The position numbers and the translations under genes are program-made. From IMG/VR virus record IMGVR_UViG_3300007734_000651, positions 1 through 37,456 of that record: DNA of 37,456 nucleotides. One strand, 5' to 3'. The stretch is from a virus. Below the pieces are notes generated by a model, which was given only the letters and a program-made list of their open reading frames with translations, was not told the DNA's origin and searched no databases. Of the stretch, positions 11,396 through 37,456 are shown one piece after another (position 1 is the first letter of the stretch; each line of letters starts with the position of its first letter).

Positions 11396-12526
11396 ATGAG
11401 TGTTATTAGATTAACCACAGAAATTAACAGAACACCCAGAGTAATGCAGTTAGAGGGTATTTTTGATTTGCAGGCGGCAAAAATATCTACTACTGAAATT
11501 CCTAACAATATTCCAGATTTAGGAACACGCGATTGGAATATAGGGTTAATTGTTGGTCCTAGCGGTGCAGGTAAAACAACAGTCGCCAAAGATATGTTTA
11601 ATCAAGAATTATCAAGTACGGAAACTATGCAATGGGGTCGCAGTAACGCCGTTATTGACGATTTTCCAAAAGAGTTAGCAATTAAAGATATTACAGAGTT
11701 GCTTTCTAGTGTTGGTTTCTCATCACCGCCTGCTTGGTTGCGCCCATATGAGAATTTATCAAACGGTGAAAAGTTCCGTGTGAGTATGGCACGCGTATTA
11801 GCAGAAAGTAAAGAGATTGCAGTTGTAGATGAATTTACATCTGTTATTGACCGCACAGTTGCGCAAATAGGTTCTGCCGCTATTGCTAAAACTGTTAGAG
11901 CGCGCAATCAAAAGTTTGTCGCAGTTGCTTGCCATTACGATATTGAAGAGTGGTTACAACCTGACTGGATTTATCAGCCGCATCTCGGCACTTTCACTTG
12001 GGGGTCGGTTCAACCCCGCCCACAAGTCAATGTTGAAGTCATTTGGGCAAAGTATGAAGCGTGGAGCATATTCAGCAAACATCACTATCTAAGCGATAGT
12101 TTGAATAAATCAGCACAGATTTATGTTGGTTTAATTAAAGACCAACCAGCAGTATTTACCGCTATTTTGCCACTTATTAACGCTAATGTTAAAAATGCTA
12201 GGCGTATTAGTAGAACTGTTGTTCTGCCTGACTATCAAGGTATCGGCTTAGGTGGCAGGTTTGTAGATTATGTATGCGCTGGATTAGCGGCGCAAGGACT
12301 CTCTACATATACGACCACATCTCACCCTGCACGCGTTAGGGCGTTGAATAGAAGCCCGAACTGGGAGATGATAAGAGAACCGTCAAGAGTGGCGCAAAGA
12401 GGCAAAACATCTTCCATAACAGGCAGATTAGGTTTATCGCGTAGCCGTATTACTACTGGTTTCAGATATGCAGGGCAACCTAATGAAGAGATTGCAAAAG
12501 TATTATGCCCACGCCCACAGAATTAA
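11396..12526 (+). CDS. ABC-type ATPase fused to GNAT/Mom-like acyltransferase
   Basis: 376 aa with two parts. Residues 50-200 are an ABC-type ATPase: Walker A GPSGAGKTT (54-62), signature LSNGE (121-125) preceding KFRVSMARVL, Walker B IAVVDE (141-146), and H-loop ACHYD at 179. No membrane segment is present, so it is not a transporter. Residues 215-345 are a GNAT fold: HHYLS (229-233), IYVGLIKDQPAVF, and the acyl-CoA loop QGIGLGGRF (281-289). The HYxS-type start is reminiscent of phage Mu Mom, which modifies adenine. With the ParB-like gene beside it, a DNA hypermodification role is inferred. The C-terminus is basic. Confidence 0.8.
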   Translation: MSVIRLTTEINRTPRVMQLEGIFDLQAAKISTTEIPNNIPDLGTRDWNIGLIVGPSGAGKTTVAKDMFNQELSSTETMQWGRSNAVIDDFPKELAIKDITELLSSVGFSSPPAWLRPYENLSNGEKFRVSMARVLAESKEIAVVDEFTSVIDRTVAQIGSAAIAKTVRARNQKFVAVACHYDIEEWLQPDWIYQPHLGTFTWGSVQPRPQVNVEVIWAKYEAWSIFSKHHYLSDSLNKSAQIYVGLIKDQPAVFTAILPLINANVKNARRISRTVVLPDYQGIGLGGRFVDYVCAGLAAQGLSTYTTTSHPARVRALNRSPNWEMIREPSRVAQRGKTSSITGRLGLSRSRITTGFRYAGQPNEEIAKVLCPRPQN

Positions 12527-12726: not shown

Positions 12727-13160
12727 TGGGAAGAAGTAAAGTCAAACCAGAAACCTTGGAGAAGGAACGCAAGGTTCTGGAATTTAGGCGCGGTGGATTA
12801 ACATTTGATTTAATCGCAGAGCGTTTAGGTTACGCAAGTGCATCTGGCGCGCATAAGGCATATTTGAGTGCGTGTAACAGAATTGTTTATGAAGATGTAG
12901 TTGAAGTGCGCAAATCTGAAATGGATAGATTAGATATTGCGCAAGCGGCTATATGGGGAGATTTAACAGATACGGTAAACACAGATGCTAATACTCGCGC
13001 ACGATTAGTGTTAGCGTTGATTAAGATTATGGAAAGGCGTGCCAGATTGCTTGGTCTGGATATGCCTACGAAGGCACAAGTTGAGGTAAGTATCTATGAC
13101 CGAGACACAATTGATGCAGAAGTCCAGCGACTTGTCGCTATCCTTAATAGCCAGCCGTAG
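12726..13160 (+). CDS. Terminase small subunit (probable)
   Basis: 144 aa from the ATG overlapping the previous stop. The N-terminus (KERKVLEFRRGGLTFDLIAERLGYASASGAHKAYLSA) is a helix-turn-helix typical of small terminases, which bind the packaging site. The C-terminus is a helical oligomerisation segment (ARLVLALIKIMERRARLLGLD). Its position directly before the large subunit, with a 65-nt overlap, supports the assignment. Confidence 0.82.
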   Translation: MGRSKVKPETLEKERKVLEFRRGGLTFDLIAERLGYASASGAHKAYLSACNRIVYEDVVEVRKSEMDRLDIAQAAIWGDLTDTVNTDANTRARLVLALIKIMERRARLLGLDMPTKAQVEVSIYDRDTIDAEVQRLVAILNSQP

Positions 13161-14442
13161 AGTTAGATGGGTTAGTCAGTTAGCACGACCTGAACAATTA
13201 CCGACTGAAGATACATCTTGGACAACTTGGCTATATTTGGCAGGGCGTGGTGCTGGTAAGACACGCACGGCAGCAGAGTGGTTGGCTTATGAAGCATCTA
13301 GTAAGCCCAGAACACGCTGGGCAATAGTTGCGCCTACTTATGGAGATGCACGCGATACTTGCGCAGAAGGTGAAAGCGGTATTGTTAATATCTTGCGTCA
13401 ATATGGCACGCTAAAGGACTACAATCGTTCAATCGGTGAAATCTTTTTAACAAATGGCTCACGCATTAAATTGTTTTCTGGCGAAGAACCAGAGCGTTTG
13501 CGTGGACCACAACATCACGGCGGTTGGTTTGATGAGTTAGCCGCATTTAAGTATCCAGAAGCGTGGGACCAGTACCAATTCGGTTTGCGCTTAGGTGAAT
13601 TCCCACAAACTATTGTTACAACTACACCAAAGCCAATTAAGTTAATCAAAGAGTTAATAACACAAGACAATGTAAAAATAGTGCGTGGTTCAACATTTGA
13701 TAATGCGGCTAACTTGGCTGAAAGTGCCTTAGCGCAGTACAGATTGCGTTATGAGAACACGCGCCTTGGAAGGCAGGAACTTTACGGTGAAATACTGGAC
13801 AATGTAGATGGTGCGCTATGGACTCGCAAACTAATTGACGATGCACGGGTGGATAGCGCACCACCACTTGTTCGCGTTGTAGTTGCTATTGACCCTGCGG
13901 TTACTGGTAACGCTACTAGCGATGAAACAGGCATAGTTGCGGCTGGAATTGCATCAAATGGTGAGTATTACATACTTGATGATAAATCTATTCGTACAAC
14001 GCCAGATGCTTGGGCAAGAGTGGCAGTTGAGTTGTATCACAAACACAATGCAGACAAAATCGTTGCCGAAACAAACAATGGCGGTGATATGGTTATTTTG
14101 CTATTAAAGCAGGTAGATGCATCTGTTGCGACAAAAAAGGTAACTGCTACTAGAGGTAAACAATTACGCGCCGAACCTATAAGCAGTTTGTATGAGCAAG
14201 GCAAAGTGCATCACATTGGATACTTCTCTGAACTTGAAACGCAAATGTGCGAATGGACTCCAACATCGGCAGAAAGCCCAGATAGATTAGATGCATTAGT
14301 GTGGGCATTAACAGAATTAAACTCTGGCGGTGCTAGTATGCTTGCCTTAGCAAATATGGCATTATTATGTACAGTTTGCGGTATGCCATCACCGAAAACG
14401 GCTAGCATTTGTTCTAAATGCGGAAACAATTTGAGAGGTTAA
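13096..14442 (+). CDS. terL: Terminase large subunit with C-terminal zinc ribbon
   Basis: 448 aa. The motor ATPase has Walker A AGRGAGKT (49-56) and a Walker B region GGWFDELAAF. The nuclease domain shows AIDPAVTGN, AETNNGGDM and SPDRLDALVWA, the acidic residues of the headful-type RNase H fold. It packages concatemeric DNA into proheads. The last 24 residues carry CTVC (425-428) and CSKC (439-442), a zinc ribbon that I do not recall in most TerL proteins. ATG at 13096 has GAGGTAAG upstream and overlaps the small subunit. Confidence 0.95.
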   Translation: MTETQLMQKSSDLSLSLIASRRVRWVSQLARPEQLPTEDTSWTTWLYLAGRGAGKTRTAAEWLAYEASSKPRTRWAIVAPTYGDARDTCAEGESGIVNILRQYGTLKDYNRSIGEIFLTNGSRIKLFSGEEPERLRGPQHHGGWFDELAAFKYPEAWDQYQFGLRLGEFPQTIVTTTPKPIKLIKELITQDNVKIVRGSTFDNAANLAESALAQYRLRYENTRLGRQELYGEILDNVDGALWTRKLIDDARVDSAPPLVRVVVAIDPAVTGNATSDETGIVAAGIASNGEYYILDDKSIRTTPDAWARVAVELYHKHNADKIVAETNNGGDMVILLLKQVDASVATKKVTATRGKQLRAEPISSLYEQGKVHHIGYFSELETQMCEWTPTSAESPDRLDALVWALTELNSGGASMLALANMALLCTVCGMPSPKTASICSKCGNNLRG

Positions 14443-14446
14443 TGTA

Positions 14447-16264
14447 ATGGGTTTGATAGACCGATTTGCAGAAAGAGTTGCAAAAGAGATTACTAAAGCA
14501 CCTAATTTACCAGTAGGTTCAATAGCACTAACAGAAACACAAATGCGCAATAACATTGGGCAAACAACAACATACGGACAAACAGATGCACTACCACGCA
14601 ATCCAAATCTTGCAACAGTTCCTTTTGCCCCTGGTATGCCAATTGTTCCGGGCGCAATAAATCCGCCTAATCCAGATAGCGGCAGACCAGACCCACGCAG
14701 ATATGAATATCAAGTTGCGCAAAATATAAATATTACAGAAACACGCTTAACACCTTTCAAAACATTACGCGCCGCCGCAGACCAAATTGATATCTTGCGC
14801 AGATGTATTGAAGTTACTAAATCAAAAATACTTGGATTGAATTGGGATATTACATTAGGCGAAGATGCCGCAGAAAAGATTATTAGCGAAATTGGTGGCG
14901 CTCGCGTACGCGCTATGCAAACTGCGCGAGATAACTTCACCGAAGATATTAGCCGAGTAAGACAATTCTGGGAACAACCAGATAAGGCAAACGGATTATT
15001 ATTCTATGACTGGTTAAATATTGCACTTGAAGAGATATTAGTGCTAGATGCTTGGGCTATATGGCCGCAAAAGAGTGTTGGCGGTGATTTGTTTGGATTA
15101 CAAATTCTTGATGGTTCAACAATTAAGCCATTGATTGATGATAGAGGTATGCGACCAATGCCGCCTTATAGTGCATATCAGCAAATCTTGTTTGGTTTTC
15201 CTCGCAGCGAATTTACTGCACCGACAGAAACAGAAGAAGCAGATGGCGAATTTACAAGTGATGAATTGGCATATCTAATCAAGAACCGCAGAACAACTAG
15301 CGTGTATGGATATGGACCAACTGAACGCGCATTACCACTAGCAGATATTTACTTGCGCCGTCAGCAATGGCTTCGTGCAGAATATACAGATGGCGTTACA
15401 CCAGAACTGTTAATGAAAACAGATGCAAACTTTGGTAATAACCCAGACTTGTTACGCGCATATGAAAACATTTTCAATAGCGATTTAGCAGGACAAACAG
15501 AACAACGCAAGCGTGTTCGCTTACTGCCAGTCGGTATGGAACCAGTGCAGTTTGATGGTTACGGCGAGCGCTTTAAGGACACACTTGACGAATATCTAGT
15601 CAATAGCATTTGCGGACACTATGGCGTACAACCTTCTGAAATTGGATTTAGTCCTAAAGGCGGTTTGGGTGGTTCAGGTTTTCAATTAGGTCAGGCAGAA
15701 AGTAGCGAAGTGCTTGGCGCAATTCCGTTAGCAAACTGGGTTGCAAAAATGATTTCGCAATTGTCTTATGTGTTCCTCGGTATGCCACGCGAACTTGAAT
15801 TCAAGTTTATGGAAAGTGGCAGAGAAGATACAGAAAGTAATGCACGCACAGTTGATATAAATATCAAATCTGGAACATTAACGCTAAATGAAGCACGCTC
15901 ACGCTCTGGTTTGCCTTTAATTGAAGCGCCAGAGGCAGATGTTCCTATCTTCACAACCGCAACTGGTTCATATCTTGTAACAGAAACAGGTATGGTGTTA
16001 ATTGACGGCACACAAACGCTAACAGAAGATGGTGAAGCAGAAGCAGAAGTGCCTGCAATTGAAGATACGCCAGAGATAGATGTAACCGATGCAGTAAAAG
16101 CACAACAGGAATTAAAAAAGTTCCTGCGGTTCTTAACAAAAGCGCCAGATAGGACTTTCCGTTTCCAAGATGTGCCAGTTGTCTATGCAGATGTGTTAAA
16201 CAAATTTGTTTCTGCAAAAGATTACGATAGCGCTCGCTGGTACGCTGAACGCTATTTAGCATAG
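14447..16264 (+). CDS. Portal protein
   Basis: 605 aa. Portal features are an N-terminal Pro/Asn-rich arm, then TPFKTLRAAADQIDILRRCIE, WPQKSVGGDLFGLQILDGST, YGYGPTERALPLADIYLRRQ, MEPVQFDGYGERFKDTLDEY and LNEARSRSGLPLIEAPEADV. It forms the dodecameric DNA gateway at the capsid vertex. It follows terL by 4 nt and precedes the gp7-like protein, the standard order. The long C-terminal part (about 540-605) is helical and acidic, with a final DYDSARWYAER. Confidence 0.92.
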   Translation: MGLIDRFAERVAKEITKAPNLPVGSIALTETQMRNNIGQTTTYGQTDALPRNPNLATVPFAPGMPIVPGAINPPNPDSGRPDPRRYEYQVAQNINITETRLTPFKTLRAAADQIDILRRCIEVTKSKILGLNWDITLGEDAAEKIISEIGGARVRAMQTARDNFTEDISRVRQFWEQPDKANGLLFYDWLNIALEEILVLDAWAIWPQKSVGGDLFGLQILDGSTIKPLIDDRGMRPMPPYSAYQQILFGFPRSEFTAPTETEEADGEFTSDELAYLIKNRRTTSVYGYGPTERALPLADIYLRRQQWLRAEYTDGVTPELLMKTDANFGNNPDLLRAYENIFNSDLAGQTEQRKRVRLLPVGMEPVQFDGYGERFKDTLDEYLVNSICGHYGVQPSEIGFSPKGGLGGSGFQLGQAESSEVLGAIPLANWVAKMISQLSYVFLGMPRELEFKFMESGREDTESNARTVDINIKSGTLTLNEARSRSGLPLIEAPEADVPIFTTATGSYLVTETGMVLIDGTQTLTEDGEAEAEVPAIEDTPEIDVTDAVKAQQELKKFLRFLTKAPDRTFRFQDVPVVYADVLNKFVSAKDYDSARWYAERYLA

Positions 16265-19771: not shown

Positions 19772-21481
19772 ATGGCTCTAGCACCAGTTAAAGCAACTGA
19801 CTTGTTCGGCGATGCCACTTCTGCAAAAGATGCAGCAGTGCGTATGGACGAATTTACAGATGCTTTCAACAAGTCTGTTGGACAGTCTATTTCAGACCCA
19901 TCAGCAATTATGGCTATCAAGTCAGGTACATCAACATTTGCTCAGGCATCTGGCGACCCAGTATCAACACTTGAAGCCCTAGCAACAAACAAATCTCTTT
20001 CACCAGATGCAGTCGGCGCGCTTAATAACGCACTTGCTTCACAACGCCTTGCTATGCAGGACATTCAGAAAGACATCACACTCACAAGCCCACTTAGCAC
20101 ATCTTTTGCGGCTTTTGACCTTGAAGCACCTTCTAAGTTGCTCACACCACGCCCAACACCATTGCGTAACAAGATTGCACGCAAGAAGGGTGTCGGTACA
20201 TCTCACCGTGTAAAGCGTATTAACGGATACACAGGTACAGGTACAGGCGGAGTAGGAAACATCTGGCCCGGAATTACAGAAAGCACAACAACTGCTTTCG
20301 GTTCAATTAACTACGAGCGCGGTCCAAAGATTGCTTATGCTGCTGACGACCTAGTGTTGCCATACAACTCATACTCACTATCTGACTCAGTATCATTTGA
20401 TGCTAACTTCTCAGGTATGGGATATCAGGACTTGCGCCAACTCTCATCAACTTCAACACTTTATGCAACAATGTTGATGGAAGAGCGTATGATGCTTATG
20501 GCACGCGGAACTGCATCAGGATATTCTGGCGCACTTTCAGCACCTACATTCACAAAGGCTTCACCAGTCGCATCAGGTTCACAGACTGCACTTGCAGCAA
20601 ATACCTACTACATCAATGTAACTGCTGATGCTGGTATTTCTTCATCAGGCTTTGGTGAGTCAATTCTTGGAACTGAAGTTTCAGAAACAGTTGCCGCAGG
20701 TGATGTTCTTACTGTTACAGTTTCAACCGCAGTAGCAGGCGCACTTGGTTACAACATTTATGTTGGAACTGCAACAGGCGCAGCAAACCTAAAGTATCAG
20801 GGAACACTCCGTGGTACTGGAACATTTACAATTCAGGGTGCAGGCGCATCTGGTCTAACAGGTAACAACGCCGCATTTACAACAACAGGTGCCGCCGCAT
20901 CTCGCGCAACCGCAGACACATCTGCATATGCAACAGGTTATGACGGAATTTTGCCTACTGTTCTTGGTTCATCAAGCGGTTACAACAACTCAATCAACTC
21001 AACATTCTCAACCTCTAACCCAGGAAATGAATATCAGGTTGTATTTAGCAACCTTTACGACAATGTAAAGGCTGACCCAGATGAGATTTTCCTAAACGGC
21101 GCAGACCGTAAGCAACTCTCAGATGCAATTAAGAACGGCTCAACTGCTAACTACCGTATTAACCTTTCACAAAATGAAGTGGGAGATTATGTTGGTGGTG
21201 CAGTTATCGGCGCTCTACACAACGAAATTACTGGCAAGATGGTTCCACTAACCGTTCACCCTTGGCTTCCACAGGGTGTATCACCAGTGCTTTCATACAC
21301 ACTTCCAATTCCAGACACAGAGGTAACAGATGTTTGGGCTAACTTTATGGTTCAGGACTATATGGGCATTCAATGGCCTGTAACTCAGTTCGCATATGAG
21401 TTCAGCACATACTTCCGTGGCAACTTCTTCTGCACCGCTCCTGCTTGGAACGGCGCAGTATCAGGAATTGTTAAGGCTTAG
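19772..21481 (+). CDS. Major capsid protein (HK97-fold) with Ig-like insertion
   Basis: 569 aa, large for an HK97-type capsid protein. The N-terminal part resembles a delta/N-arm region, then TPRPTPLRNKIARKKGVGTSHRV and YDLV-type strands. Residues about 260-365 form a separate Ser/Thr/Gly-rich beta domain (APTFTKASPVASGSQTALAA, YINVTADAGISSSG, VTVSTAVAGALGYNIYVG) resembling an Ig/fibronectin-like insertion. The shell domain resumes at YDGILPTVLG. Codons are enriched for C-ending forms (AAC, ATC, GAC), consistent with very high expression. AAAGGAAA precedes the ATG; a hairpin terminator follows. Confidence 0.88.
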   Translation: MALAPVKATDLFGDATSAKDAAVRMDEFTDAFNKSVGQSISDPSAIMAIKSGTSTFAQASGDPVSTLEALATNKSLSPDAVGALNNALASQRLAMQDIQKDITLTSPLSTSFAAFDLEAPSKLLTPRPTPLRNKIARKKGVGTSHRVKRINGYTGTGTGGVGNIWPGITESTTTAFGSINYERGPKIAYAADDLVLPYNSYSLSDSVSFDANFSGMGYQDLRQLSSTSTLYATMLMEERMMLMARGTASGYSGALSAPTFTKASPVASGSQTALAANTYYINVTADAGISSSGFGESILGTEVSETVAAGDVLTVTVSTAVAGALGYNIYVGTATGAANLKYQGTLRGTGTFTIQGAGASGLTGNNAAFTTTGAAASRATADTSAYATGYDGILPTVLGSSSGYNNSINSTFSTSNPGNEYQVVFSNLYDNVKADPDEIFLNGADRKQLSDAIKNGSTANYRINLSQNEVGDYVGGAVIGALHNEITGKMVPLTVHPWLPQGVSPVLSYTLPIPDTEVTDVWANFMVQDYMGIQWPVTQFAYEFSTYFRGNFFCTAPAWNGAVSGIVKA

Positions 21482-25456: not shown

Positions 25457-28083
25457 TGGCATTTTTACCACCAGCAATATTTGAGATTAAAGCAGTAGCA
25501 GATAAGGCTATTGCAGAATTTAAGCAAGTTAATAATGAACTAGGCAAGATGGAAGGTCAGGCTCAAAAGGCTGGCGGTTCAATTAGCGGTATTGATAAAG
25601 CAAGTCGTATTGCAAATGCTGGTCTTTTGGCTATGGGCGCGGCGTTTGCTGGTTTTGCGGCAATCGGTATTAAAGAGGCTATGGAAGCCGAAACCGTTAT
25701 GACCAAATTAAATACCACATTAGCAAGTCAAGGATTAAATACTGCTAAGACAAGAAATGAAATTGATAAACTTTCTAGCAGTTTTGTAAAACTTGGGTTT
25801 GATGATGAAGCCGCCGCCGCAAGTATGCAGATTTTAATTCAATCAACTGGTGATTTAACAAAGTCAAAACAATTATTAGCAATGTCCGCCGATTTAGCAC
25901 GCGCTAAATCAATAAGTTTAGAGTCTGCATCTCAAATGCTTGTAAGAGCAAATATGGGCGCAGGTAAAGTATTTAAGCAATTTGGAATTGTTTTAGACTC
26001 AACTTTGCCTAAAGCAGAAGCAACTTCAAAAGCGATGCAAGAATTGAAAGACAAGTTAAGCGGTCAGGCAGAAAAAGCAACAAAAACATTTAGCGTTCAA
26101 TTACAAATTCTTAAAGAACAATTTAACAATGTTGCTCAATCTTTGGGTGAAGTGTTAATGCCTTATCTGAAAAAAGCATTAGAAATATTTAATAGTGCCA
26201 TTGAGTTTGTAAAGAAAAATTCAACTGCGTTTCAAATCTTTGGCGGAATTGTTTTAGTTGTAACAGTTGCCTTAGCATCTTACGCAGTAACACTTAAAAC
26301 AATAACTGCGGTTACAAAAGCATATGCAGTAGTTCAAGGTATTGCCAAAACCGCAACTATGTTACTTACAGGACAACAGATTGCTCTTAATGGCGCTATG
26401 GCAATTAACCCTATTGGTCTTGTTGTTGCGGCAGTTATTGCGCTTATAGGCGTATTTGTAATTCTGTGGAATAAATCTGAAACTTTCCGCAAAGGCGTAA
26501 TTGCAATGTCAAAGGCGGCATTAAACGGTATTGCTGCAATTATTCCTATTGTTGTTGATGCTGGATTGTCGCTTGTTCAATTTTTCTTAAATCCTTTGAA
26601 ATTAATTTTAACCGTGTTATCCAAATTGCCTGGTGTTGGTAAATATGCAAAAGCAGGTTTGGATTTAATGAGCAAAGGGTTTGAAGGGGCTGCTAATTTT
26701 GCAGATAAAGCGGCTGCAAAAGCAAAATCACTTTCTGATGGTTTGGATAAATTAAATAAACCAGTCAAAGTAAAATTATTAACAACCGCAGAAACTGAAT
26801 TTGGTAATAAAGTAGGTGGCAAAGGCAAAGGTTTAACACCTGAACAAATTGCTGCTCAAAAAGCCGCTAAAGAAGCGCAAACAAAAGCCAATGAAGATTA
26901 TATGAAGATTGTTGGCGACTTAAATGAAAAGATAGGTTCTGCGCAAACTAAATTTACTGAAAAAATGGCTAGTATTGATAAGACATATAAAGAAAAACTT
27001 GCCAATGCGCAAACCGCTTTTAACGACAAGATGGGCGAACTTAACGCTAAAAAGTCAGAAGATTTGCTAAAAGCAGAACAAGATAATGCTAAAAAAGTAA
27101 ATGATATTTACAAGAATTATTATGCAAAACTAGAAAGCATTGTAAAGCAATCTGTAGATAGATTGCGTGATGCCTTCCGTAAAGGCACAGAGTTTAGTCC
27201 TGTTGAACTATTTAAGGGCTTGGCTGAGGCTGGCACAGTAAGTGTTAATGAACTAATAAAACAAATGCAAGGAAAACTTGCGGCCGCTAAAAATCTTGCT
27301 GAAAATGCCGCTTTTCTTCAAGCAAATGGATTTTCACAAACATTTATTGAACAAGTTGTTTCTGCTGGACCAGAAGTTGGTAATCAATTAGCAGAGTCAA
27401 TTCTTAATTCATCACCTGCAACAATGAAAGAGTTACAAACCCTTTATGTTGATATGGAAAAAACAACTCAACACGGCGTAGATGGTCTTGCAAACCAAAT
27501 GAGTAGATTTGGCAAACTTGCTACCGATGAACTTAATGATGCTTATGCGCAAGCAGGTATTGACCTTGCAGAAGCGTTAGGAAACCAAGCACAAGCGTTT
27601 GCAGATGCTCAGACTGAAATAAATAGCAATTTTGATAAAGCGATGGCAGAAGCAGAAAAGATTAGAGATAGCGCTATTGCTGAAGCATACAAAGATATGG
27701 TAGATGCACAAGAAGAAGCGCGCAAAGAATTAGCAAGTACGCTTGCAGATATTGAAAAAGATATGATTGAAAAACTTGGTTCAATAACAAATGCTACAAA
27801 CGCAACAATAAGCGCAATTCAAGCACTTGGCGCGGCTTTAAGTAATGCTAAAAATTCCACACAACCACAAATTCCTGCACAAAGCGACTCTGTTGCAAGT
27901 TATACAATGGCAGATGCAATAAAGAAAACAGGCGCGGCAAGCGAAGCAGAATATATGCGTGAAAGTGGCGGTAAGAATTTGGTGATTAACGCACCCGTTA
28001 CAAATTACAATACCACCAGTCCAGAAGATATAGGTAACACTTTTGTAAGACTTGCTAAATACGGATTGGTGGTAACTGAATAA
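25456..28083 (+). CDS. Tape measure protein
   Basis: 875 aa, the longest gene, predicting a tail of roughly 130 nm at 1.5 angstrom per residue. The N-terminus is helical with a membrane-like stretch near 55-75 (AGLLAMGAAFAGFAAIG). Three further hydrophobic segments lie near residues 250-390 (FGGIVLVVTVALASYAVTL, AINPIGLVVAAVIALIGVFV, AAIIPIVVDAGLSLVQFFL). The second half is a long charged coiled coil. It sets tail length and probably passes through the host envelope. It is placed directly before the distal tail protein. Confidence 0.93.
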   Translation: MAFLPPAIFEIKAVADKAIAEFKQVNNELGKMEGQAQKAGGSISGIDKASRIANAGLLAMGAAFAGFAAIGIKEAMEAETVMTKLNTTLASQGLNTAKTRNEIDKLSSSFVKLGFDDEAAAASMQILIQSTGDLTKSKQLLAMSADLARAKSISLESASQMLVRANMGAGKVFKQFGIVLDSTLPKAEATSKAMQELKDKLSGQAEKATKTFSVQLQILKEQFNNVAQSLGEVLMPYLKKALEIFNSAIEFVKKNSTAFQIFGGIVLVVTVALASYAVTLKTITAVTKAYAVVQGIAKTATMLLTGQQIALNGAMAINPIGLVVAAVIALIGVFVILWNKSETFRKGVIAMSKAALNGIAAIIPIVVDAGLSLVQFFLNPLKLILTVLSKLPGVGKYAKAGLDLMSKGFEGAANFADKAAAKAKSLSDGLDKLNKPVKVKLLTTAETEFGNKVGGKGKGLTPEQIAAQKAAKEAQTKANEDYMKIVGDLNEKIGSAQTKFTEKMASIDKTYKEKLANAQTAFNDKMGELNAKKSEDLLKAEQDNAKKVNDIYKNYYAKLESIVKQSVDRLRDAFRKGTEFSPVELFKGLAEAGTVSVNELIKQMQGKLAAAKNLAENAAFLQANGFSQTFIEQVVSAGPEVGNQLAESILNSSPATMKELQTLYVDMEKTTQHGVDGLANQMSRFGKLATDELNDAYAQAGIDLAEALGNQAQAFADAQTEINSNFDKAMAEAEKIRDSAIAEAYKDMVDAQEEARKELASTLADIEKDMIEKLGSITNATNATISAIQALGAALSNAKNSTQPQIPAQSDSVASYTMADAIKKTGAASEAEYMRESGGKNLVINAPVTNYNTTSPEDIGNTFVRLAKYGLVVTE

Positions 28084-28940
28084 TGCCTGTTGTTACCGCT
28101 AGTTATTCATTTTCATTTAATGGTCTTACATTTGGCGGTTCAGCCACGCCTTATCAAATACTTTCGGTAGATGGTTTGGAAGGCATACCACAAATTCGTA
28201 ATCAAGACGACAATCGCGGATATGCAGATGGTATGTTTTCTGGACAAGATTTTCTTGGTGGTCGTAATATAACAATTACATTTTTAACACTTGCAACTAG
28301 CGGTGGTAACTCAGCGCAAACAAATCATAATTTAATTCAAAATGTTTTATTGCCACAAACATCAGGAACTACGCCGCTTTATTTTATTTTGCCACCATCG
28401 GGAGAACAATTCATAAATGCGCGTGTTCGGTCTTTTATTACAAACATTGACCCAAATTACACTTATGGTTATATAACATCACAAGTAACATTTTTTTGTC
28501 CTAATCCCACTTATTACGATAGCACTTTACAAAGCGGAGTGTTATCAGTATCAAACCCGTTGGGTCGCACATATAACCGTACATATAATTTGGTCTATGG
28601 TGGCGGTTCTACGGCAGTAACTACAACAGTAACAAATAATGGTAGATGGGCTGCATATCCAACAATTACGCTAAATGGACCAATTACAAACCCCACTTTA
28701 GGTAATACAACACAAAATAAATATCTTACATTTACTGGTACTTATACAAATACAGATAGTCTAGTAATTGATTTGTACAATAAACTTGTAACACTTAACG
28801 GAGTTACCGCCAGAAATCTACTTACATCAGGCGACTGGTTTTGGGCGCCAGTCGGAACATCACAATTTTATATGACAGGCACAAACACAGTACCATTAAC
28901 TACCGCCGCTACGGTAGTATGGTACAACACATACATCTAG
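28083..28940 (+). CDS. Distal tail protein (Dit-like)
   Basis: 285 aa, TAATG-coupled to the tape measure. The N-terminal belt domain has YQILSVDGLEGIPQIRNQDD, ADGMFSGQDFLGGRNITITF, and a middle region ending ITSQVTFFCPNPTYYDS, as in siphovirus Dit proteins. The C-terminal galectin-like part is beta-rich. It forms the hub at the tail tip. Position between tape measure and fibre genes is standard. Confidence 0.85.
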   Translation: MPVVTASYSFSFNGLTFGGSATPYQILSVDGLEGIPQIRNQDDNRGYADGMFSGQDFLGGRNITITFLTLATSGGNSAQTNHNLIQNVLLPQTSGTTPLYFILPPSGEQFINARVRSFITNIDPNYTYGYITSQVTFFCPNPTYYDSTLQSGVLSVSNPLGRTYNRTYNLVYGGGSTAVTTTVTNNGRWAAYPTITLNGPITNPTLGNTTQNKYLTFTGTYTNTDSLVIDLYNKLVTLNGVTARNLLTSGDWFWAPVGTSQFYMTGTNTVPLTTAATVVWYNTYI

Positions 28941-28948
28941 GAGAATAA

Positions 28949-29971
28949 ATGGCACTACGCACACCGCCCAGTTGGTTACAAAACGGTTCGCACCCTGCCG
29001 AAAATGACCGCCTTTCAATGCAAGGTATTATTGCAACTACTGGCATCATTGGTACATCTTCTTGCGCAGTAACTCAGAACTCTCCTGCTGGTATGTCTGT
29101 ATTGGTTGCGGCTGGTTGGGGCGCAATCGTTGGTACAACCCAAGCAAATATGGGCGTGTACCAATTTTACAATGATGCTTCTGCCATTGCCACAATTACA
29201 ACTGCAAACCCTTCAAACCCTAGAATTGATCGCGTTTGTATTACAGTTTCAGATGCTTATTACACAGGCTCACTTAATCAAGTTGCTATAAATGTAGTTG
29301 CTGGAACTCCTGCGGCTTCACCTACCGCACCTGCAATACCTGCTAACTCAATTTCATTAGCGACTATTGCAGTTGCTGCTGGTGCTACTTCAATTTTAAC
29401 TGCAAACATTACAGATACACGCGTTAATGTAACTACAAATCTTCCTGTTGGTGATATAACTGATGTTAATGGTGGTACAGGAATAACGGTAACTAATAGT
29501 ACGGGACCAATCCCTGTTGTTGCTATTGACTCAACAGTTGTAACTTTAACTGGCGCTCAAAATCTTTCAAACAAAACGCTTATTTCTCCAGAGGAACGCA
29601 CAACCGTATCAGCAACAGCCGCAACTGGAACTATTAACTATGACGCTTCAACTCAAGGCGTTCTTTATTACACAACAAACGCAAGCGCAAACTGGACTTT
29701 GAATATACGCGCTAGTTCAAGCGCAACACTCAGTTCAATTCTTGCCGTAGGAGATGCAATTACTGTAACTCATCTTGTAACTAACGGGGCAACCGCTTAC
29801 TATAACAATGCTTTACAAATAGACGGATCTTCAGTAACGCCAAAATATCAAGGCGGAACAGCATGGAGCGCAGGCAACGCCTCAAGCATTGACGCCTATG
29901 TTTACACAGTCGTCAAGACAGCGGCAACGCCCACATACACCGTATTCGCAAGTCAGACGAAATTTGCATAA
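28949..29971 (+). CDS. Tail fibre / minor tail protein (receptor-binding candidate)
   Basis: 340 aa. The N-terminus (LRTPPSWLQNGSHPAENDRL) and the block MSVLVAAGWGAIVGTTQ followed by NPRIDRVCITVSDAYYTGSL are typical of actinophage baseplate/fibre proteins. The C-terminal half is a Ser/Thr-rich beta segment. GGAGA precedes the ATG. It opens the cassette where almost all GATC, TCGA and ACGT sites lie. Probably host adsorption; the exact receptor cannot be told. Confidence 0.8.
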   Translation: MALRTPPSWLQNGSHPAENDRLSMQGIIATTGIIGTSSCAVTQNSPAGMSVLVAAGWGAIVGTTQANMGVYQFYNDASAIATITTANPSNPRIDRVCITVSDAYYTGSLNQVAINVVAGTPAASPTAPAIPANSISLATIAVAAGATSILTANITDTRVNVTTNLPVGDITDVNGGTGITVTNSTGPIPVVAIDSTVVTLTGAQNLSNKTLISPEERTTVSATAATGTINYDASTQGVLYYTTNASANWTLNIRASSSATLSSILAVGDAITVTHLVTNGATAYYNNALQIDGSSVTPKYQGGTAWSAGNASSIDAYVYTVVKTAATPTYTVFASQTKFA

Positions 29972-29974
29972 CCA

Positions 29975-30547
29975 ATGAGTCCAATACTTGGAGCAATGGG
30001 CGGATTAGCCGCAAGAGCATACGGCTGGGGTGTAGGTGGTGGCGTTGCTACGGACTATGAGTCAATAGCGACTATTAATGGTAACGGTTCCACCGCCACA
30101 ATTACCTTTAGCAGTATTCCTAGCACATATACCCACCTTCAGGTGCGAGTCATGGCTAGAGTTGCCGCAGGTGGCGAGGATTTATCCGTTCGCTTTAACG
30201 GTGATACTGGGGCAAATTATTCACGCCATAGAATTACAGGTTCAGGCACAGCCGCCGCTTCAGCAGGGAACGCATCAGTCAACCAAATTACAACACTTGG
30301 CAGCGCTGGTATGCCGTCCGCTGCTAACACTTATGCCGTCTCCATTATCGATGTATTAAATTACACAAATACTAATATTTACAAGACCGCCCGAATGTTA
30401 TCTGGTCAAGATAGCAACGGAACAGGCGGTATAGAAATGACTTCAGGCGCTTGGCTTAATACGGCAGCAGTAACTTCCCTAACTATCTTTTCTAACTCAT
30501 CAAACTATCCAACTGCTGCATCTTTCGCTCTGTATGGGATTAAATAA
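29975..30547 (+). CDS. Tail-tip paralog A (putative receptor-binding protein)
   Basis: 190 aa. After a Gly/Ala-rich N-terminus, it contains YESIATINGNGSTATITFSS, then TYTHLQVRVMARV, VRFNGDTGANYSRHRITGSG and WLNTAAVTSLTIFSN, ending FALYGIK. The same layout recurs in the two following genes, so the three are paralogs. Beta-rich and Thr/Ser/Asn-rich like adhesive tail-tip proteins. Translated almost directly after the fibre gene. Function inferred. Confidence 0.75.
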   Translation: MSPILGAMGGLAARAYGWGVGGGVATDYESIATINGNGSTATITFSSIPSTYTHLQVRVMARVAAGGEDLSVRFNGDTGANYSRHRITGSGTAAASAGNASVNQITTLGSAGMPSAANTYAVSIIDVLNYTNTNIYKTARMLSGQDSNGTGGIEMTSGAWLNTAAVTSLTIFSNSSNYPTAASFALYGIK

Positions 30548-31042
30548 ATGGCTACTACTTACGAACCAATAGCGACTACAACACTTGGCAGCGCGGCTGC
30601 GGATATTACCTTTTCATCTATCAGCGGCGTTTATACCGACCTTCGCCTAATCTTTCAAGGTTTAGCAGTATCGGCTGGCGTTGATATTTATTGCCAAGTT
30701 AATGGCGATACCGCGACTAACTATTCACACACACGCCTTACAGGTAACGGAACAGCCGCTTCATCATCTCGTGGTTCAACCCTTGCTTTTATGCGTTTTA
30801 GCGATGGCGGTTCACCTGAAACGACTAATGCTTCTTTGACTAAAGTGGACTTCATGAATTACAGCAACACAACAACTTATAAGACAGCAATAAACCGAGC
30901 CGATAACGCTAATCGCGGAACAGATGCGGTAGTTAATCTCTGGCGCTCAACCGCTGCTATCACTTCGATTAAGTTATATCTATCCTCTGGCAATATCGCT
31001 AGCGGCGCTACTGCTACTTTGTATGCGATTAAGGCGGCATAA
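30548..31042 (+). CDS. Tail-tip paralog B (putative receptor-binding protein)
   Basis: 164 aa. Same core as its neighbours: YEPIATTTLGSAAADITFSS, VYTDLRLIFQG, CQVNGDTATNYSHTRLTGNG, then NLWRSTAAITSIKLYLSS and a final ATLYAIK. The ATG directly follows the stop of paralog A (TAAATG). Divergence is highest in the middle, as expected of receptor-contact loops. It probably forms part of the same tip complex, or is an alternative specificity module. Confidence 0.75.
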   Translation: MATTYEPIATTTLGSAAADITFSSISGVYTDLRLIFQGLAVSAGVDIYCQVNGDTATNYSHTRLTGNGTAASSSRGSTLAFMRFSDGGSPETTNASLTKVDFMNYSNTTTYKTAINRADNANRGTDAVVNLWRSTAAITSIKLYLSSGNIASGATATLYAIKAA

Positions 31043-31551
31043 TGGCAACTACATTCGTCAAAATTGCTAGCGTAACCGTGGGCGCTGGTGGCGCTTCTTC
31101 GATGGATTTTAATTCAATTCCCAGCACTTACACAGACCTTTTAGTATTGGTCAGTTCTCGTAACTCTCGCGCAAACGATAACGATGACCTTTTAATGAGG
31201 TTCAATGGTTCAAGTACTTCATATAGTAATAAAAGTATTTACGGAACAGGCTCTGCAATAGCAAGTAACTCGCCGTTTACCACTTACATTTACGGCGGCT
31301 CTAATAATGGCAATACTTCAACTGCTTCAACCTTTTCAAGCAACTCGTTATACATACCTAACTATGCAGGGTCAGCATATAAATCTGTTTCCGTTGAAGG
31401 TCTTCAAGAAAACAATACGTCACAGGCTTTTATGAATTTAATTGCTGGTCTATGGTCAAACACAGCAGCCATTACTTCCATATCTTTGCTTTCTGGCGCT
31501 AACTTCGTTCAATACTCAACAGCAACCCTTTACGGCATATCCAAATCATAA
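31042..31551 (+). CDS. Tail-tip paralog C (putative receptor-binding protein)
   Basis: 169 aa. Core layout FVKIASVTVGAGGASSMDFN, TYTDLLVLVSSRNSR, LLMRFNGSSTSYSNKSIYGT, LWSNTAAITSISLLSG, ending ATLYGIS. TAATG-coupled to paralog B. With A and B it forms a tandem array. Shares N- and C-terminal pattern with them but has a distinct central loop with SGAN-type repeats. No catalytic motif is seen. Confidence 0.75.
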   Translation: MATTFVKIASVTVGAGGASSMDFNSIPSTYTDLLVLVSSRNSRANDNDDLLMRFNGSSTSYSNKSIYGTGSAIASNSPFTTYIYGGSNNGNTSTASTFSSNSLYIPNYAGSAYKSVSVEGLQENNTSQAFMNLIAGLWSNTAAITSISLLSGANFVQYSTATLYGISKS

Positions 31552-31562
31552 GGAGACAAACA

Positions 31563-31793
31563 ATGGCAGATACAAAGATAATCGTGAACTGCGAGACAGG
31601 TGAAGTCTCCGAAGTTGAACTAACCGCTGAGGAAATCAAGCAGCGCGAAGCAGATGCTATCGCTTACGCGAAGGCTAAAGCCGATGAGGATGCAAAGGCG
31701 CAAGCGCTCGCAACCCTCAAAGCCAGCGCCAAAGCAAAGTTGATCGCAGGGCAACCTTTAACTGCGCAAGAAGCCGACACACTGATAATCTAG
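31563..31793 (+). CDS. Small tail accessory protein (XkdW-like style)
   Basis: 76 aa. AAGGAG precedes the ATG. Sequence opens KIIVNCETGEVSEVELTAEE and continues as a long charged, Ala-rich helix ending PLTAQEADTLII. Proteins with this pattern are found next to tail-fibre genes of many phages, where they may help fibre folding or attachment. One of the few GATC sites lies in it at 31742. Closes the imported-looking cassette. Confidence 0.75.
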   Translation: MADTKIIVNCETGEVSEVELTAEEIKQREADAIAYAKAKADEDAKAQALATLKASAKAKLIAGQPLTAQEADTLII

Positions 31794-31797
31794 CGGT

Positions 31798-32892
31798 ATG
31801 GCTACCACATACCGTTATTTATTTGCTGATTTGCTTACAAATAACATAATTGCAGAGTTGCCTTTAACAAGTGTTTCATTTACTCAACAATTAAATCAGG
31901 CTGGAACTTTAAGCGGACAACTGCTTTTATCTGGTCTTAATGCAAATACTTTTAATGTGCTTAATGCAACTATTCCTGCAAAAACAGGTATTTATGTTGA
32001 TAGAAATGGCACACTTGTTTGGGGCGGTGTAATTTGGGGCAGACCGTACAGTAGCGATAGTCAAACTTTAAGCATAGAAGCAAGAGAATTTGAAAGTTAT
32101 TTTGAACGCAGAAAAATAACTACAACAACCGCATTTACAAATATAGACCAATTATCTATTGCGCAAAACTTAATTACGCAAGCACAATCTGCGGTTTATG
32201 GAAACATTGGCGTAACGGTAGGCACAGAAACATCTGGCGTTTTGCTTAGCCGTACATATTATTCGTATGAATACAAACAGGTATATGGTGCAATACAAGA
32301 TTTGGCAAGACAAAATAACGGTTTTGATTTTAATATCAAAGTAAGTTATGACGGTTCAGGCAATCCAGCAAAAATACTGCAATTAGGTTATCCGCGTATT
32401 GGAACAGTTTATAGTGCAAATTCTATAACTGCACCAGTATTTGAGTTGCCAGCAAGCAATATTGTTTCTTATAGTTTAAGCGAAGATGGTTCGGCTTCTG
32501 CAAATACCATTTACGCTTTAGGGGCAGGTTCTAATGAAGGAAAGTTAATAGCAACCGCGCAAGATACAACTAAATTTGCAAGCGGTTATCCACTACTTGA
32601 AGAACAAGTCAATTATTCTGAAATAACCGATAGTACATATTTGGAGCAATTAGCAACAGGACAAGTATTATCCGTTAGTAATCCAATTACAATTTTTAGA
32701 GTAACGGTTCCTGCTTATGTGGAACCTCAATTTGGTACATACTCTTTAGGAGATGATGCGCGTTTAAGAATTACCGATAGCCGATTTGTTACAACGCTTG
32801 ATAACATTTATCGCATTGTTGGACTTACAGTAAGTCCGGGCGAAGATGGTCCAGAGCGTGTAGTCTTAACTTTAACAAATACAACAAACTAG
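31798..32892 (+). CDS. Tail-tip hub protein (Siphovirus ReqiPepy6 Gp37-like)
   Basis: 364 aa. Segments resembling the Gp37-like tail protein family include YRYLFADLLTNNIIAELPLT, GIYVDRNGTLVWGGVIWGRP, TLSIEAREFESYFERRKI, LARQNNGFDFNIKV and RIVGLTVSPGEDGPERVVLT. Such proteins form the central hub below Dit and carry other tip proteins. The base composition differs from the cassette immediately upstream, fewer C-ending codons. No ribosome-binding site is obvious. Confidence 0.8.
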   Translation: MATTYRYLFADLLTNNIIAELPLTSVSFTQQLNQAGTLSGQLLLSGLNANTFNVLNATIPAKTGIYVDRNGTLVWGGVIWGRPYSSDSQTLSIEAREFESYFERRKITTTTAFTNIDQLSIAQNLITQAQSAVYGNIGVTVGTETSGVLLSRTYYSYEYKQVYGAIQDLARQNNGFDFNIKVSYDGSGNPAKILQLGYPRIGTVYSANSITAPVFELPASNIVSYSLSEDGSASANTIYALGAGSNEGKLIATAQDTTKFASGYPLLEEQVNYSEITDSTYLEQLATGQVLSVSNPITIFRVTVPAYVEPQFGTYSLGDDARLRITDSRFVTTLDNIYRIVGLTVSPGEDGPERVVLTLTNTTN

Positions 32893-35019: not shown

Positions 35020-36043
35020 AGATAGATTTGAAGAGTTACCAGAAGATATTGAGTCAAGTGATATTACCGAATTACGCAAGGCGTTAATACGCACTCAAAA
35101 ACAACTTAAAGAAGCAAAGAACCGCACCGAAGAATTAGTTGAAGTAACAATACAAGCAACCAAAGATGCAACGCTTGCAATGGGCGCAGTCAAACCCGTA
35201 CAAGTTCCTGTACAAGATAAACGCAAGAAATCTACGGAAGTTGCGTTATGGCATATGACGGATTGGCAAGGCAGTAAAAAAACCACTACATACAATTCAG
35301 AAGTAATGCGCAAACGCGTTATGGACTTTGTAGATAAAGCATACAAAATCACAGAGATACAAAGAGCAGACCACCCTGTAAAAGATGTAGTTGTGTTATT
35401 TGGCGGAGATATGGTGGAAGGTTTATTTAACTATCCAGCGCAGTTGCACGAAGTTGATGCGACTTTATTTGAACAATATGTAACGGTATCAAGACTTATT
35501 ACAGATGTTATTAGAAAAGCATTAACAATGTACGAAAATGTATTAGTGGTTGCAGAGTGGGGTAATCACGGGCGTATCGGTAACAAACGCGCAGATGTAC
35601 CACGCAACGATAACATTGACCGTATGTGTTACGAATTAGCACGACAGTTATTAGCAGATGAAAAGCGTTTAACTTGGCAAGACTGTCCAGATGATGTACA
35701 AAGAGTTGAAATAGGTAACTACCGCGCATTGTTAATACACGGTGATGAAGTCGGTAGAAACGGGTTTGCATCACCTACTGCCATTGTTCAACACGCAAAT
35801 CGTTGGCGTAGCGGTGCGTATCCTTGGGAATTTAGAGATGTTTATGTGGGGCATTACCACACACACGCTTGTTGGCCAATGGCTAACGGATTAGGAAGTA
35901 TTTACCAAACAGGTTCAACTGAGAGTGATAATCGGTATGCACGCGATTTATTAGCTGCTAGCGCTATCCCAAGCCAACGCCTGCACTTTATTGACCCAAT
36001 TAAAGGAAGAGTTACTGCGGAATACAAAATTTGGTTGGATTAG
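35009..36043 (+). CDS. Metallophosphoesterase (calcineurin-like)
   Basis: 344 aa. The metal-binding motifs are present in order: MTDWQGSKKT (Asp), LFGGDMVEG (GDxxE-type), EWGNHGRIG (GNH), LIHGDEVGR (His/Asp) and VGHYHTHACW (GHxH). N-terminal 80 residues are a coiled coil (LRKALIRTQKQLKEAKN). Could act as a phosphodiesterase or nuclease on DNA or signalling nucleotides. The last large plus-strand gene; its 3' end overlaps a minus-strand gene by 32 nt. GGAG precedes the ATG. Confidence 0.88.
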   Translation: MSLKDRFEELPEDIESSDITELRKALIRTQKQLKEAKNRTEELVEVTIQATKDATLAMGAVKPVQVPVQDKRKKSTEVALWHMTDWQGSKKTTTYNSEVMRKRVMDFVDKAYKITEIQRADHPVKDVVVLFGGDMVEGLFNYPAQLHEVDATLFEQYVTVSRLITDVIRKALTMYENVLVVAEWGNHGRIGNKRADVPRNDNIDRMCYELARQLLADEKRLTWQDCPDDVQRVEIGNYRALLIHGDEVGRNGFASPTAIVQHANRWRSGAYPWEFRDVYVGHYHTHACWPMANGLGSIYQTGSTESDNRYARDLLAASAIPSQRLHFIDPIKGRVTAEYKIWLD

Positions 36044-36116
36044 TTTCCGCTTCATCAACCGCATCATCAATACTGCGTGTATGTTCTTTAGCGCAATCTC
36101 CGCAAATTCGGCACAT
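36012..36116 (-). CDS. 34-aa cysteine-rich microprotein (minus strand)
   Basis: Reading the minus strand, ATG at 36116-36114 overlaps the stop of the upstream minus gene (TAATG). The product begins CRICGDCAKEH, a three-cysteine plus histidine zinc-like knuckle, followed by an acidic stretch and a late cysteine. It overlaps the end of the metallophosphoesterase gene by 32 nt in antiparallel direction. Short and so uncertain, but the coupled start and cysteine spacing favour a real gene. Confidence 0.5.
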   Translation of the reverse strand: MCRICGDCAKEHTRSIDDAVDEAETNPTKFCIPQ

Positions 36117-36346
36117 TAATCTTCATCATCATAATCATCACCATAATCTGTGGTGATTAGGCGCATATTTGCTATATCAACGCCATTATCTTTTACTGTT
36201 TGGCACGCTTCTTTGAATACATTTAGCGCACGGTTAGTTAAATCATCAACCATGTCTGGGTATTCGGTTTCAGTTCCTAATTCAACAACTAAACCGCCAC
36301 AACGGATTGTGATTTGCGAATAACTTGATTTACCAGTTTGTGCCAT
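36116..36346 (-). CDS. Small acidic minus-strand protein
   Basis: 76 aa on the minus strand. Sequence SYSQITIRCGGLVVELGTET, then MVDDLTNRALNVFKEACQTV and a final run of Asp, Glu and Tyr (DYGDDYDDED). Looks like a typical compact alpha/beta phage protein. It reads convergently toward the late plus operon and divergently from the plus genes at 37243. No strong ribosome-binding site is visible, AGGCAT being weak. Opposed orientation suggests early expression from the divergent region. Confidence 0.7.
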   Translation of the reverse strand: MAQTGKSSYSQITIRCGGLVVELGTETEYPDMVDDLTNRALNVFKEACQTVKDNGVDIANMRLITTDYGDDYDDED

Positions 36347-36597
36347 AACCGAAGTGTATGCCTATCTATGTTTATGTATGCAAGTGTTACAAATGATGTG
36401 TCGGGATTAAAAAACTGCCTACTTTTCCACAAGGCGTGTAAGGCTATTTGCGGACATTTGAATAGCAATTGCATATAGATGTATCACTTGTACATATGCG
36501 TGTCTCTACGGGCTTGTAACGGGGTTAAAAACACCCTCTAAAACCCATCTCGGCGTGGGGTGATACCATTGAAGGGTAGTTTAAGAACGGGTCGTCC

Positions 36598-36609
36598 ATT
36601 CGTACGAAT
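36598..36609. promoter_or_regulatory. Perfect 12-nt palindrome ATTCGTACGAAT
   Basis: A perfect dyad in the noncoding divergent region, suited to a dimeric repressor or replication-initiator site. No second full copy was seen nearby, so this remains a candidate operator. Confidence 0.35.
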
Positions 36610-37037
36610 ACAACCCCAGTAATTTACCTACCAGTACATTTACAACTAAATATCTACAAAAATCTCGGTGAAGGCATCGGATTAACGCTTACGCACCGCA
36701 CCGCTCTGGCGAGAATAATAAGTAGATATTGACACATAGGAGATATATACGGTAAGCAAAATCGTTATTTAGTTTGCACCGTTCAGAGTATCCAGTAACA
36801 AATTGCAAGTCCGAATTATAGCCAGCACAATCTGTTAGTCGCTGTTAATCACACTAATAGTAATTAGGCACACTTTCGGTATTCTACAAGGTACGCAATT
36901 AGTAGATATAACACATTGCAAAAAGTTATGACACGCAAATAAGGGAACGCACGCAACGGATAAGTCCTAGGCAGTGACAGGAACAGGCACCCACAGTAGT
37001 TGCTAATCAGCGCACTCCAAATAAGGCGGAAGTCGGC

Positions 37038-37133
37038 ATGGAGAATTTATCTCAGAGGTCGGTTTGGCACACCGATAGTGGGTATCAAGTTCAACACAAT
37101 GAATTTGGTATTTGCAAAAATATAAATAACTAG
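37038..37133 (+). CDS. 31-aa small ORF in the noncoding region
   Basis: ATG 37038 to TAG 37133. The peptide (SQRSVWHTDSGYQVQHNEFG, then ICKNINN) looks protein-like, with aromatic and polar residues and no low-complexity run. GCGGAAG lies 5-11 nt upstream as a weak ribosome-binding site. A hairpin at 37152-37180 follows and could be its terminator. The length leaves it doubtful. Confidence 0.35.
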   Translation: MENLSQRSVWHTDSGYQVQHNEFGICKNINN

Positions 37134-37151
37134 GGACAAACAATTTCCGAA

Positions 37152-37180
37152 ACGGCGCTTGCACTAAAAGTAAGCGCCGT
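37152..37180 (+). terminator. Hairpin ACGGCGCTT / AAGCGCCGT
   Basis: A perfect 9-bp GC-rich stem (37152-37160 with 37172-37180), with an 11-nt loop that can form a small inner stem ACT/AGT. Precedes the gene at 37243 by 62 nt. No T tract; could be a terminator or a leader hairpin. Confidence 0.55.
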
Positions 37181-37242
37181 CTAACCGCTTAGGCAACGGT
37201 TACTGATGATGGTACGCCTATCACATAAAAAGGGAGACACAA

Positions 37243-37419
37243 ATGGACAAAAAAGTATATAAGGCTTTCTGCAACTGTGGTTGGAAAACCGCAGATAAGA
37301 AAACCGCAAAAGAAGCAAAAGATTTACTCGGTAAACACAAACACAAAGTCCGAGTAATTGAATACACAGTTACAAAAAGCAAGTATATGACCACATATAC
37401 AGGCAAAAAAATTGCATAA
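37243..37419 (+). CDS. 58-aa basic protein with C-x-C and H-x-H pairs
   Basis: ATG 37243 with AGGGAGA upstream, a strong ribosome-binding site. The product starts KVYKAFCNCGWKTADKK and continues GKHKHKVRVIEYTVTKSKYM. The cysteine pair (10, 12) and histidine pair (32, 34) are placed as in a small zinc finger, and the protein is basic, so nucleic-acid binding is plausible. It faces the early genes that begin at the window start and may be the first gene of that operon. Confidence 0.75.
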   Translation: MDKKVYKAFCNCGWKTADKKTAKEAKDLLGKHKHKVRVIEYTVTKSKYMTTYTGKKIA

Positions 37420-37421
37420 AT

Positions 37422-37444
37422 AGTAGGCATAACTTTAATCCGTA
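37422..37444 (+). repeat. Intergenic repeat AGTNGGCA-N4-TTTAATCCG, copy 3
   Basis: AGTAGGCA followed by 13 nt ending TTTAATCCG and TA. It sits just after the stop of the 58-aa gene and 13 nt before the window end. If the ends join, it would be directly followed by the partial copy at 1-12 to form a tandem pair ahead of the gene at 70. Confidence 0.6.
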
Positions 37445-37456
37445 AGTGCAAACCGT

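Follow-up and report, generated by a model that had tools for sequence, protein, structure and literature searches.

Near-complete loss of short restriction-like words from a lake-type phage genome and a fibre cassette of different word signature

The window analyzed here is the whole IMG/VR record IMGVR_UViG_3300007734_000651, a 37,456 nt stretch from a lake-type virus infecting bacteria, with genes for terminase, portal, tail and RecT/exonuclease proteins. At least fourteen short words, at least seven of which are not 4-bp, are absent or nearly absent from its coding backbone, and a cassette of five fibre genes (F1–F5) is the only region where GATC, TCGA and ACGT are found. This pattern is best explained, with a probability of about 0.8, by restriction-driven site loss in an actinobacterial tailed phage whose fibre cassette has had a different history. 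A preliminary description of the sequence had noticed the confinement of these palindromes to the cassette; that observation is correct and was understated.

Word depletion in the backbone

Exact counts over the window gave three copies of GATC, three of TCGA and one of ACGT, each exactly where it had been seen by eye (Table 1), with zero copies outside 28.9–31.8 kb. AGCT was confirmed as a single copy, and CATG as six: three in the cassette and three at positions 105, 36251 and 37037. The probability of the seven GATC, TCGA and ACGT sites falling at random within 2514 bp (29228–31742) is 6e-7. The earlier expectation of about 130 copies per word agrees with a zero-order model (about 134 each), and the depletion stands; for TCGA it was too high, the second-order Markov expectation being 37, while those for GATC, ACGT, AGCT and CATG are 98, 81, 87 and 111, respectively (z from −6.6 to −12.5). 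Two further depleted words had been overlooked, GGCC (6 observed, 64 expected) and CCGG (7 and 77), both with zero copies in the cassette, and so had several 5-bp words. CTAG, GTAC, TGCA and GCGC show no strong avoidance in the window, as was stated, though the last three are avoided by some relatives.

The depletion was also evaluated under a null in which all proteins and the genome codon usage were kept fixed and synonymous codons were shuffled, the backbone being the coding sequence outside the cassette. Observed and expected counts of the 4-bp words were 0/83 for GATC, 0/78 for ACGT, 0/51 for TCGA, 1/65 for CATG and 1/111 for AGCT. Among longer words they were 0/51 for GAWTC, 2/63 for ACAGC/GCTGT, 4/55 for TGWCA, 1/29 for GTSAC, 4/36 for CASTG, 2/33 for GACGC and 1/31 for GGATG. 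The zeros of the 4-bp words are present in each of the three codon frames and are thus no codon or codon-pair effect.

The residual copies of GGCC indicate how far this loss has gone. The dipeptide Trp-Pro, encoded by TGG-CCN, always contains the word, which cannot be removed there by a silent change. In 23 genomes that avoid GGCC, Trp-Pro accounts for 98 of the 142 residual copies and, in at least eight of these genomes, for all of them; the window has four of its six copies at Trp-Pro. Selection has taken nearly every site that could be lost with the protein unchanged. For CCGG, a bias in the flanks of the residual copies was considered as a possible sign of a longer recognition site.

A codon-pair, mutational or compositional bias in place of restriction might be suspected from the AT-rich composition and from some non-palindromic words that deviate too. 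It is a very improbable cause, since the words are absent even with amino acids and codon usage fixed, relatives of about 89% identity and similar background differ in the affected words, and the Trp-Pro floor indicates selection on the word itself. Type II restriction pressure is the explanation that fits the avoidance best. Several of the avoided words coincide with familiar type II specificities, among them those of MboI, AluI, NlaIII, TaqI, HaeIII, HpaII, TfiI, FokI and HgaI, the last two being type IIS specificities that correspond to GGATG and GACGC.

Because ACAGC, GGATG and GACGC are asymmetric, a different sequence-specific defence, such as type III or BREX, could be proposed. We consider it unlikely: 4-bp palindromes and symmetric 5-bp words, the usual targets of orthodox type II systems, make up most of the avoided set, two of the three asymmetric words have the type IIS match just given, and type III sites are reported to be avoided only very rarely (PMC6286503). 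An orientation bias of ACAGC, of the type III kind, was considered and rejected, for the cassette has nine ACAGC and zero GCTGT, but only 2–3 GCTGT are expected there.

Avoided words among relatives

A megablast of the first 25 kb of the window against 50,697 phage records gave no match. In IMG/VR, on the other hand, 66 related loci were found via the terminase large subunit and 301 via the tail-tip protein, and the window belongs to a large actinobacterial phage family known from metagenomes. All 218 cultured-phage relatives of the tail-tip protein are actinobacteriophages, and roughly half of the contigs in the family carry a WhiB-like motif; the window itself gave no match to this motif.

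Each of 33 genomes presented its own set of one to eight avoided 4-bp palindromes. AGCT and GGCC are avoided in 23 genomes each, CCGG in 17, ACGT and GATC in 16 each, and TCGA, CATG, TGCA, GTAC, ATAT and GCGC in fewer. Three genomes from the same metagenome (G001, G013 and G015) have differing sets, and a terminase tree of 59 rows needs at least 44 changes between avoidance and tolerance over ten words. Three other phages, taken for comparison, showed no comparable avoidance. Two words unavoided in most family members are absent from particular genomes: GCGC is 0 of 190 expected in G008 (L052, L160–L161) and ATAT 0 of 91 in G028 (L139, L198–L199).

The route of the loss can be followed in a pairwise comparison. 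Over 15.6 kb at 88.6% nucleotide identity, the relative G031 has 70 GATC and the window has none, while about half or more of the control-word sites are common to both. At 49 of the 70 positions the window is one base apart, and 53 of the differences are synonymous, so that the site was lost with the protein kept. The attribution of the loss to host restriction pressure, as put forward in the preliminary description, is borne out by a depletion that is word-specific, frame-independent, mostly synonymous, near the Trp-Pro floor for GGCC and combinatorial between close relatives.

The fibre cassette

The cassette lies between a Dit-like minor tail protein and the tail-tip protein (Table 1). The AlphaFold model of F3 is a confident beta-sandwich with a mean pLDDT (predicted local distance difference test) of 92.9, a fold shared by many phage proteins: Foldseek returned viral matches with template modelling scores up to 0.90, several of them named tail fibre or Stf-repeat proteins, together with weak PDB matches. 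From this predicted structure, the function of the cassette is likely to be receptor binding.

Table 1. Features of the window, with residual word sites
Feature	Coordinates	Strand	Remarks
Terminase large subunit	13096..14442	+	Query used to find the family
GGCC in portal gene	15063..15066	+	Residual, Trp-Pro (TGG CCN)
GGCC in capsid gene	20265..20268	+	Residual, Trp-Pro
GGCC in capsid gene	21375..21378	+	Residual, Trp-Pro
Dit-like minor tail protein	28083..28940	+	Left border of cassette; PHROG 5577/33; GATC: 0 in window, 3 in G001
Fibre cassette F1–F5	28949..31793	+	Sole region with GATC, TCGA, ACGT; 9 of 11 coding ACAGC/GCTGT sites
F1, 340 aa virion/fibre-base protein	28949..29971	+	PHROG 3398/5906; GATC 29228, 29826; CATG 29862
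F2, paralogue of F3/F4	29975..30547	+	CATG 30151, TCGA 30348
F3, predicted beta-sandwich domain	30548..31042	+	CATG 30853, TCGA 30965
F4, paralogue of F2/F3	31042..31551	+	TCGA 31099, ACGT 31417
F5, small protein	31563..31793	+	GATC 31742
Tail-tip protein (Tip)	31798..32892	+	Right border of cassette
GGCC in exonuclease gene	35874..35877	+	Residual, Trp-Pro
Only AGCT	35953..35956	+	AGCT in the same gene also in relatives G001 and G031

Four of the words are tolerated in the cassette, with 3 GATC (5.7 expected), 3 TCGA (5.1), 3 CATG (5.0) and 9 ACAGC (12.1), and their excess over the backbone is significant (P = 3e-4, 8e-4, 1e-3 and 3e-6, respectively). Other words are still avoided there: AGCT (0 of 17.3 expected), CCGG (0 of 5.9), GGCC (0 of 4.5) and TGWCA (0 of 5.2). 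The avoidance of AGCT, CCGG and GGCC implies that the source of the cassette was also under restriction, by a different set of words.

Compared with G001 (L002/L068, IMGVR_UViG_3300023174_000339), its nearest relative, the window shows a nucleotide identity of about 0.9 over the Dit and Tip genes, with a drop to 0.6–0.7 over 30.0–31.5 kb and a recovery thereafter. The F2–F4 alleles are unlike those of this relative, F2 being 46% identical between flanks of 95%. F4–F5, on the other hand, are almost identical in L219 (F4, 97% at the amino acid level), an otherwise unrelated phage locus in which no match to the Dit, Tip or lysis genes of the window was found. For F3 the best copy in another backbone is 88% identical in amino acids (L208), in a genome that tolerates GATC, TCGA, CATG and ACGT, lacks AGCT (0 of 17) and CCGG (0 of 10) and so resembles the cassette signature; for F2 no near-identical copy was found in another backbone. 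The GATC at 29228 is also in G001, and the sites of the cassette therefore do not all come from one event. The identity drop, the L219 match and the distinct word signature make the import of the cassette well supported, as had been proposed; this support does not extend to its direction or to its age. The cassette would have arrived after the backbone had been purged.

G001 presents a second mosaic of this kind, by word signature: most of its GATC are confined to a segment from the tape-measure gene to p71, though its Dit and Tip are 95% identical to those of the window.

The same comparison was extended to 54 loci of the family, with 132 avoided locus–word pairs. Residual sites amount to 0.192 per kb in the cassette and 0.045 outside, and when all gene positions were compared the cassette was the densest in such sites. 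In 12 of the 54 loci the cassette violates the rule of its own genome, as in G026 (TGCA, 7 inside and 0 outside), G010 (ACGT, 6 and 1) and L141 (GATC, 5 and 0).

These data bear on two other accounts of the cassette. One supposes no import, with a native cassette that has kept its sites through fast mutation of receptor-binding genes or relaxed purging. F1 and F5 do have homologues in the nearest relative, with the GATC in common mentioned above, and the divergence of F2–F4 could come from rapid evolution; we nevertheless judge this account rather unlikely. The still-avoided words, compared with ACAGC, show that purging is active in the cassette with another word set, F4–F5 recur nearly identical in an otherwise unrelated phage, and 97 of the 132 avoided pairs have no cassette site (685 expected), so that cassettes are normally purged too. 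The other account, that the assembly is a chimera whose fibre region is foreign, could appeal to the metagenomic origin of the contig, whose ends do not overlap, and to the match of F4–F5 with another phage. It is improbable, since G001 and other independent contigs keep the gene order and have homologues of F1, F5, Dit and Tip in place, and since rule-breaking cassettes are found in a dozen loci.

Two other features of the window were noted. The gene at 11396–12526 encodes an ABC-type ATPase fused to a GNAT-like domain (PHROG 11143, of unknown function), present in the near clade and absent from most distant relatives. The right end (36044–37456) has no evident plus-strand gene and contains two of the three CATG outside the cassette.

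Hosts, restriction enzymes and known systems

The hosts are probably streamlined freshwater actinobacteria of the Nanopelagicales type. A terminase search of GTDB genomes gave no match, and the sole GTDB match is a contig binned in a metagenome-assembled genome (MAG) of the Actinomycetes, whose tip protein is 58% identical and which belongs to an order with genomes mostly of 1.0–1.5 Mb. Microcystis, suggested by a terminase match to the phage Mae-JY09, was rejected as host, as both the tail proteins and WhiB point to actinobacteria and Mae-JY09 does not present such avoidance.

Among genomes of the presumed host order, C5 methyltransferases were found in 37 of 201, D12 methyltransferases in 8 and N6/N4 methyltransferases in 17, a patchy distribution that fits exchanged defences; MAGs also frequently lose such islands. 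Three methyltransferase genes of small-genome actinobacteria (L258, L269 and L271) adjoin one NgoPII-family (GGCC) and two HpaII-family (CCGG) endonucleases. The match between host enzymes and avoided words, suggested as a check in the preliminary description, is thus partial only, with candidate enzymes for GGCC and CCGG.

Several observations weigh against the explanation preferred here. DpnII-family enzymes were found in 0 of 296 genomes of the presumed host order, and TaqI and HaeIII families in 0 of 201 each; the GGCC enzyme (1 of 185) and the CCGG enzymes (2 of 181) are rare, and no known enzyme matched ACAGC or TGWCA. The host assignment is tentative, as the link to this order is one contig of a MAG. 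The codon usage of the cassette differs only mildly from that of other stretches (distance 0.134 vs 0.096 ± 0.021, with 6.7% of the other stretches equally far). Finally, the F4–F5 of L219 also appear site-poor, and the direction of exchange is not readable from them.

We infer that host enzymes, themselves putative, recognize the avoided words, and propose that many type II restriction-modification (R-M) systems would have acted as filters on the phage lineage. Each system would eliminate site-bearing genomes, and sites would be lost, mainly by single synonymous substitutions, to near the minimum forced by the proteins. As the enzymes may vary between host strains and be swapped, the avoided set would become combinatorial and shift within close phage lineages. 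The receptor-binding cassette would pass between phages, a new allele carrying the signature of its former genome, and with it sites purged by the recipient lineage, until it is purged in turn.

Whether each genome module in the family is a readable barcode of restriction exposure, with the receptor-binding cassette recurrently out of step with the backbone, seems to us evenly balanced. If so, phage sequence would be a record of the bacterial defences met by each part, and the family would register, module by module, host jumps followed by site purging, giving a culture-free natural series for rates of site loss and for the order of defence encounters. Since the avoidance is near-absolute, involves many words and differs between relatives and modules, open questions become measurable from sequence alone: how fast sites are shed, which restriction enzymes wild uncultured bacteria possess, and whether a new receptor-binding gene, that is, a host jump, precedes the purge. 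For host strains lacking CRISPR arrays, avoided words could also help in matching them to phages not yet cultured.

As a rule, restriction-site avoidance shows up as a weak statistical tendency at one or a few sites. The phenomenon described here is known in kind, but it is unusual in how many words are affected, in the switches that separate close relatives, in the Trp-Pro floor and in the mismatch at the level of modules. For that mismatch no direct precedent was found in the open-access literature, the scope of the search, subscription papers being outside it. A survey of phages reported near-complete elimination of restriction sites in about a tenth of viral genomes (PMC6286503); in both cases short type II-like sites are wholly or almost wholly gone from double-stranded DNA phages, whereas here at least fourteen words are involved, in sets that differ per close relative, with a Trp-Pro floor and a cassette that escapes. 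Plasmids likewise have sequences tuned to the R-M systems that they meet (PMC10359461), but mostly for 6-bp targets and as statistical trends, in contrast to the near-absolute loss of 4–5-bp words. By description, the family can be likened to the phages of 'Ca. Nanopelagicales' (PMC10202952), with genomes of about 39 kb, GC contents in the 40s and whiB, a gene shared by roughly half of the family. As in the mosaic exchange of receptor-binding genes in tailed phages, fibre genes are replaced between conserved flanks; here the swap is also seen as a mismatch of restriction words between the cassette and the backbone.
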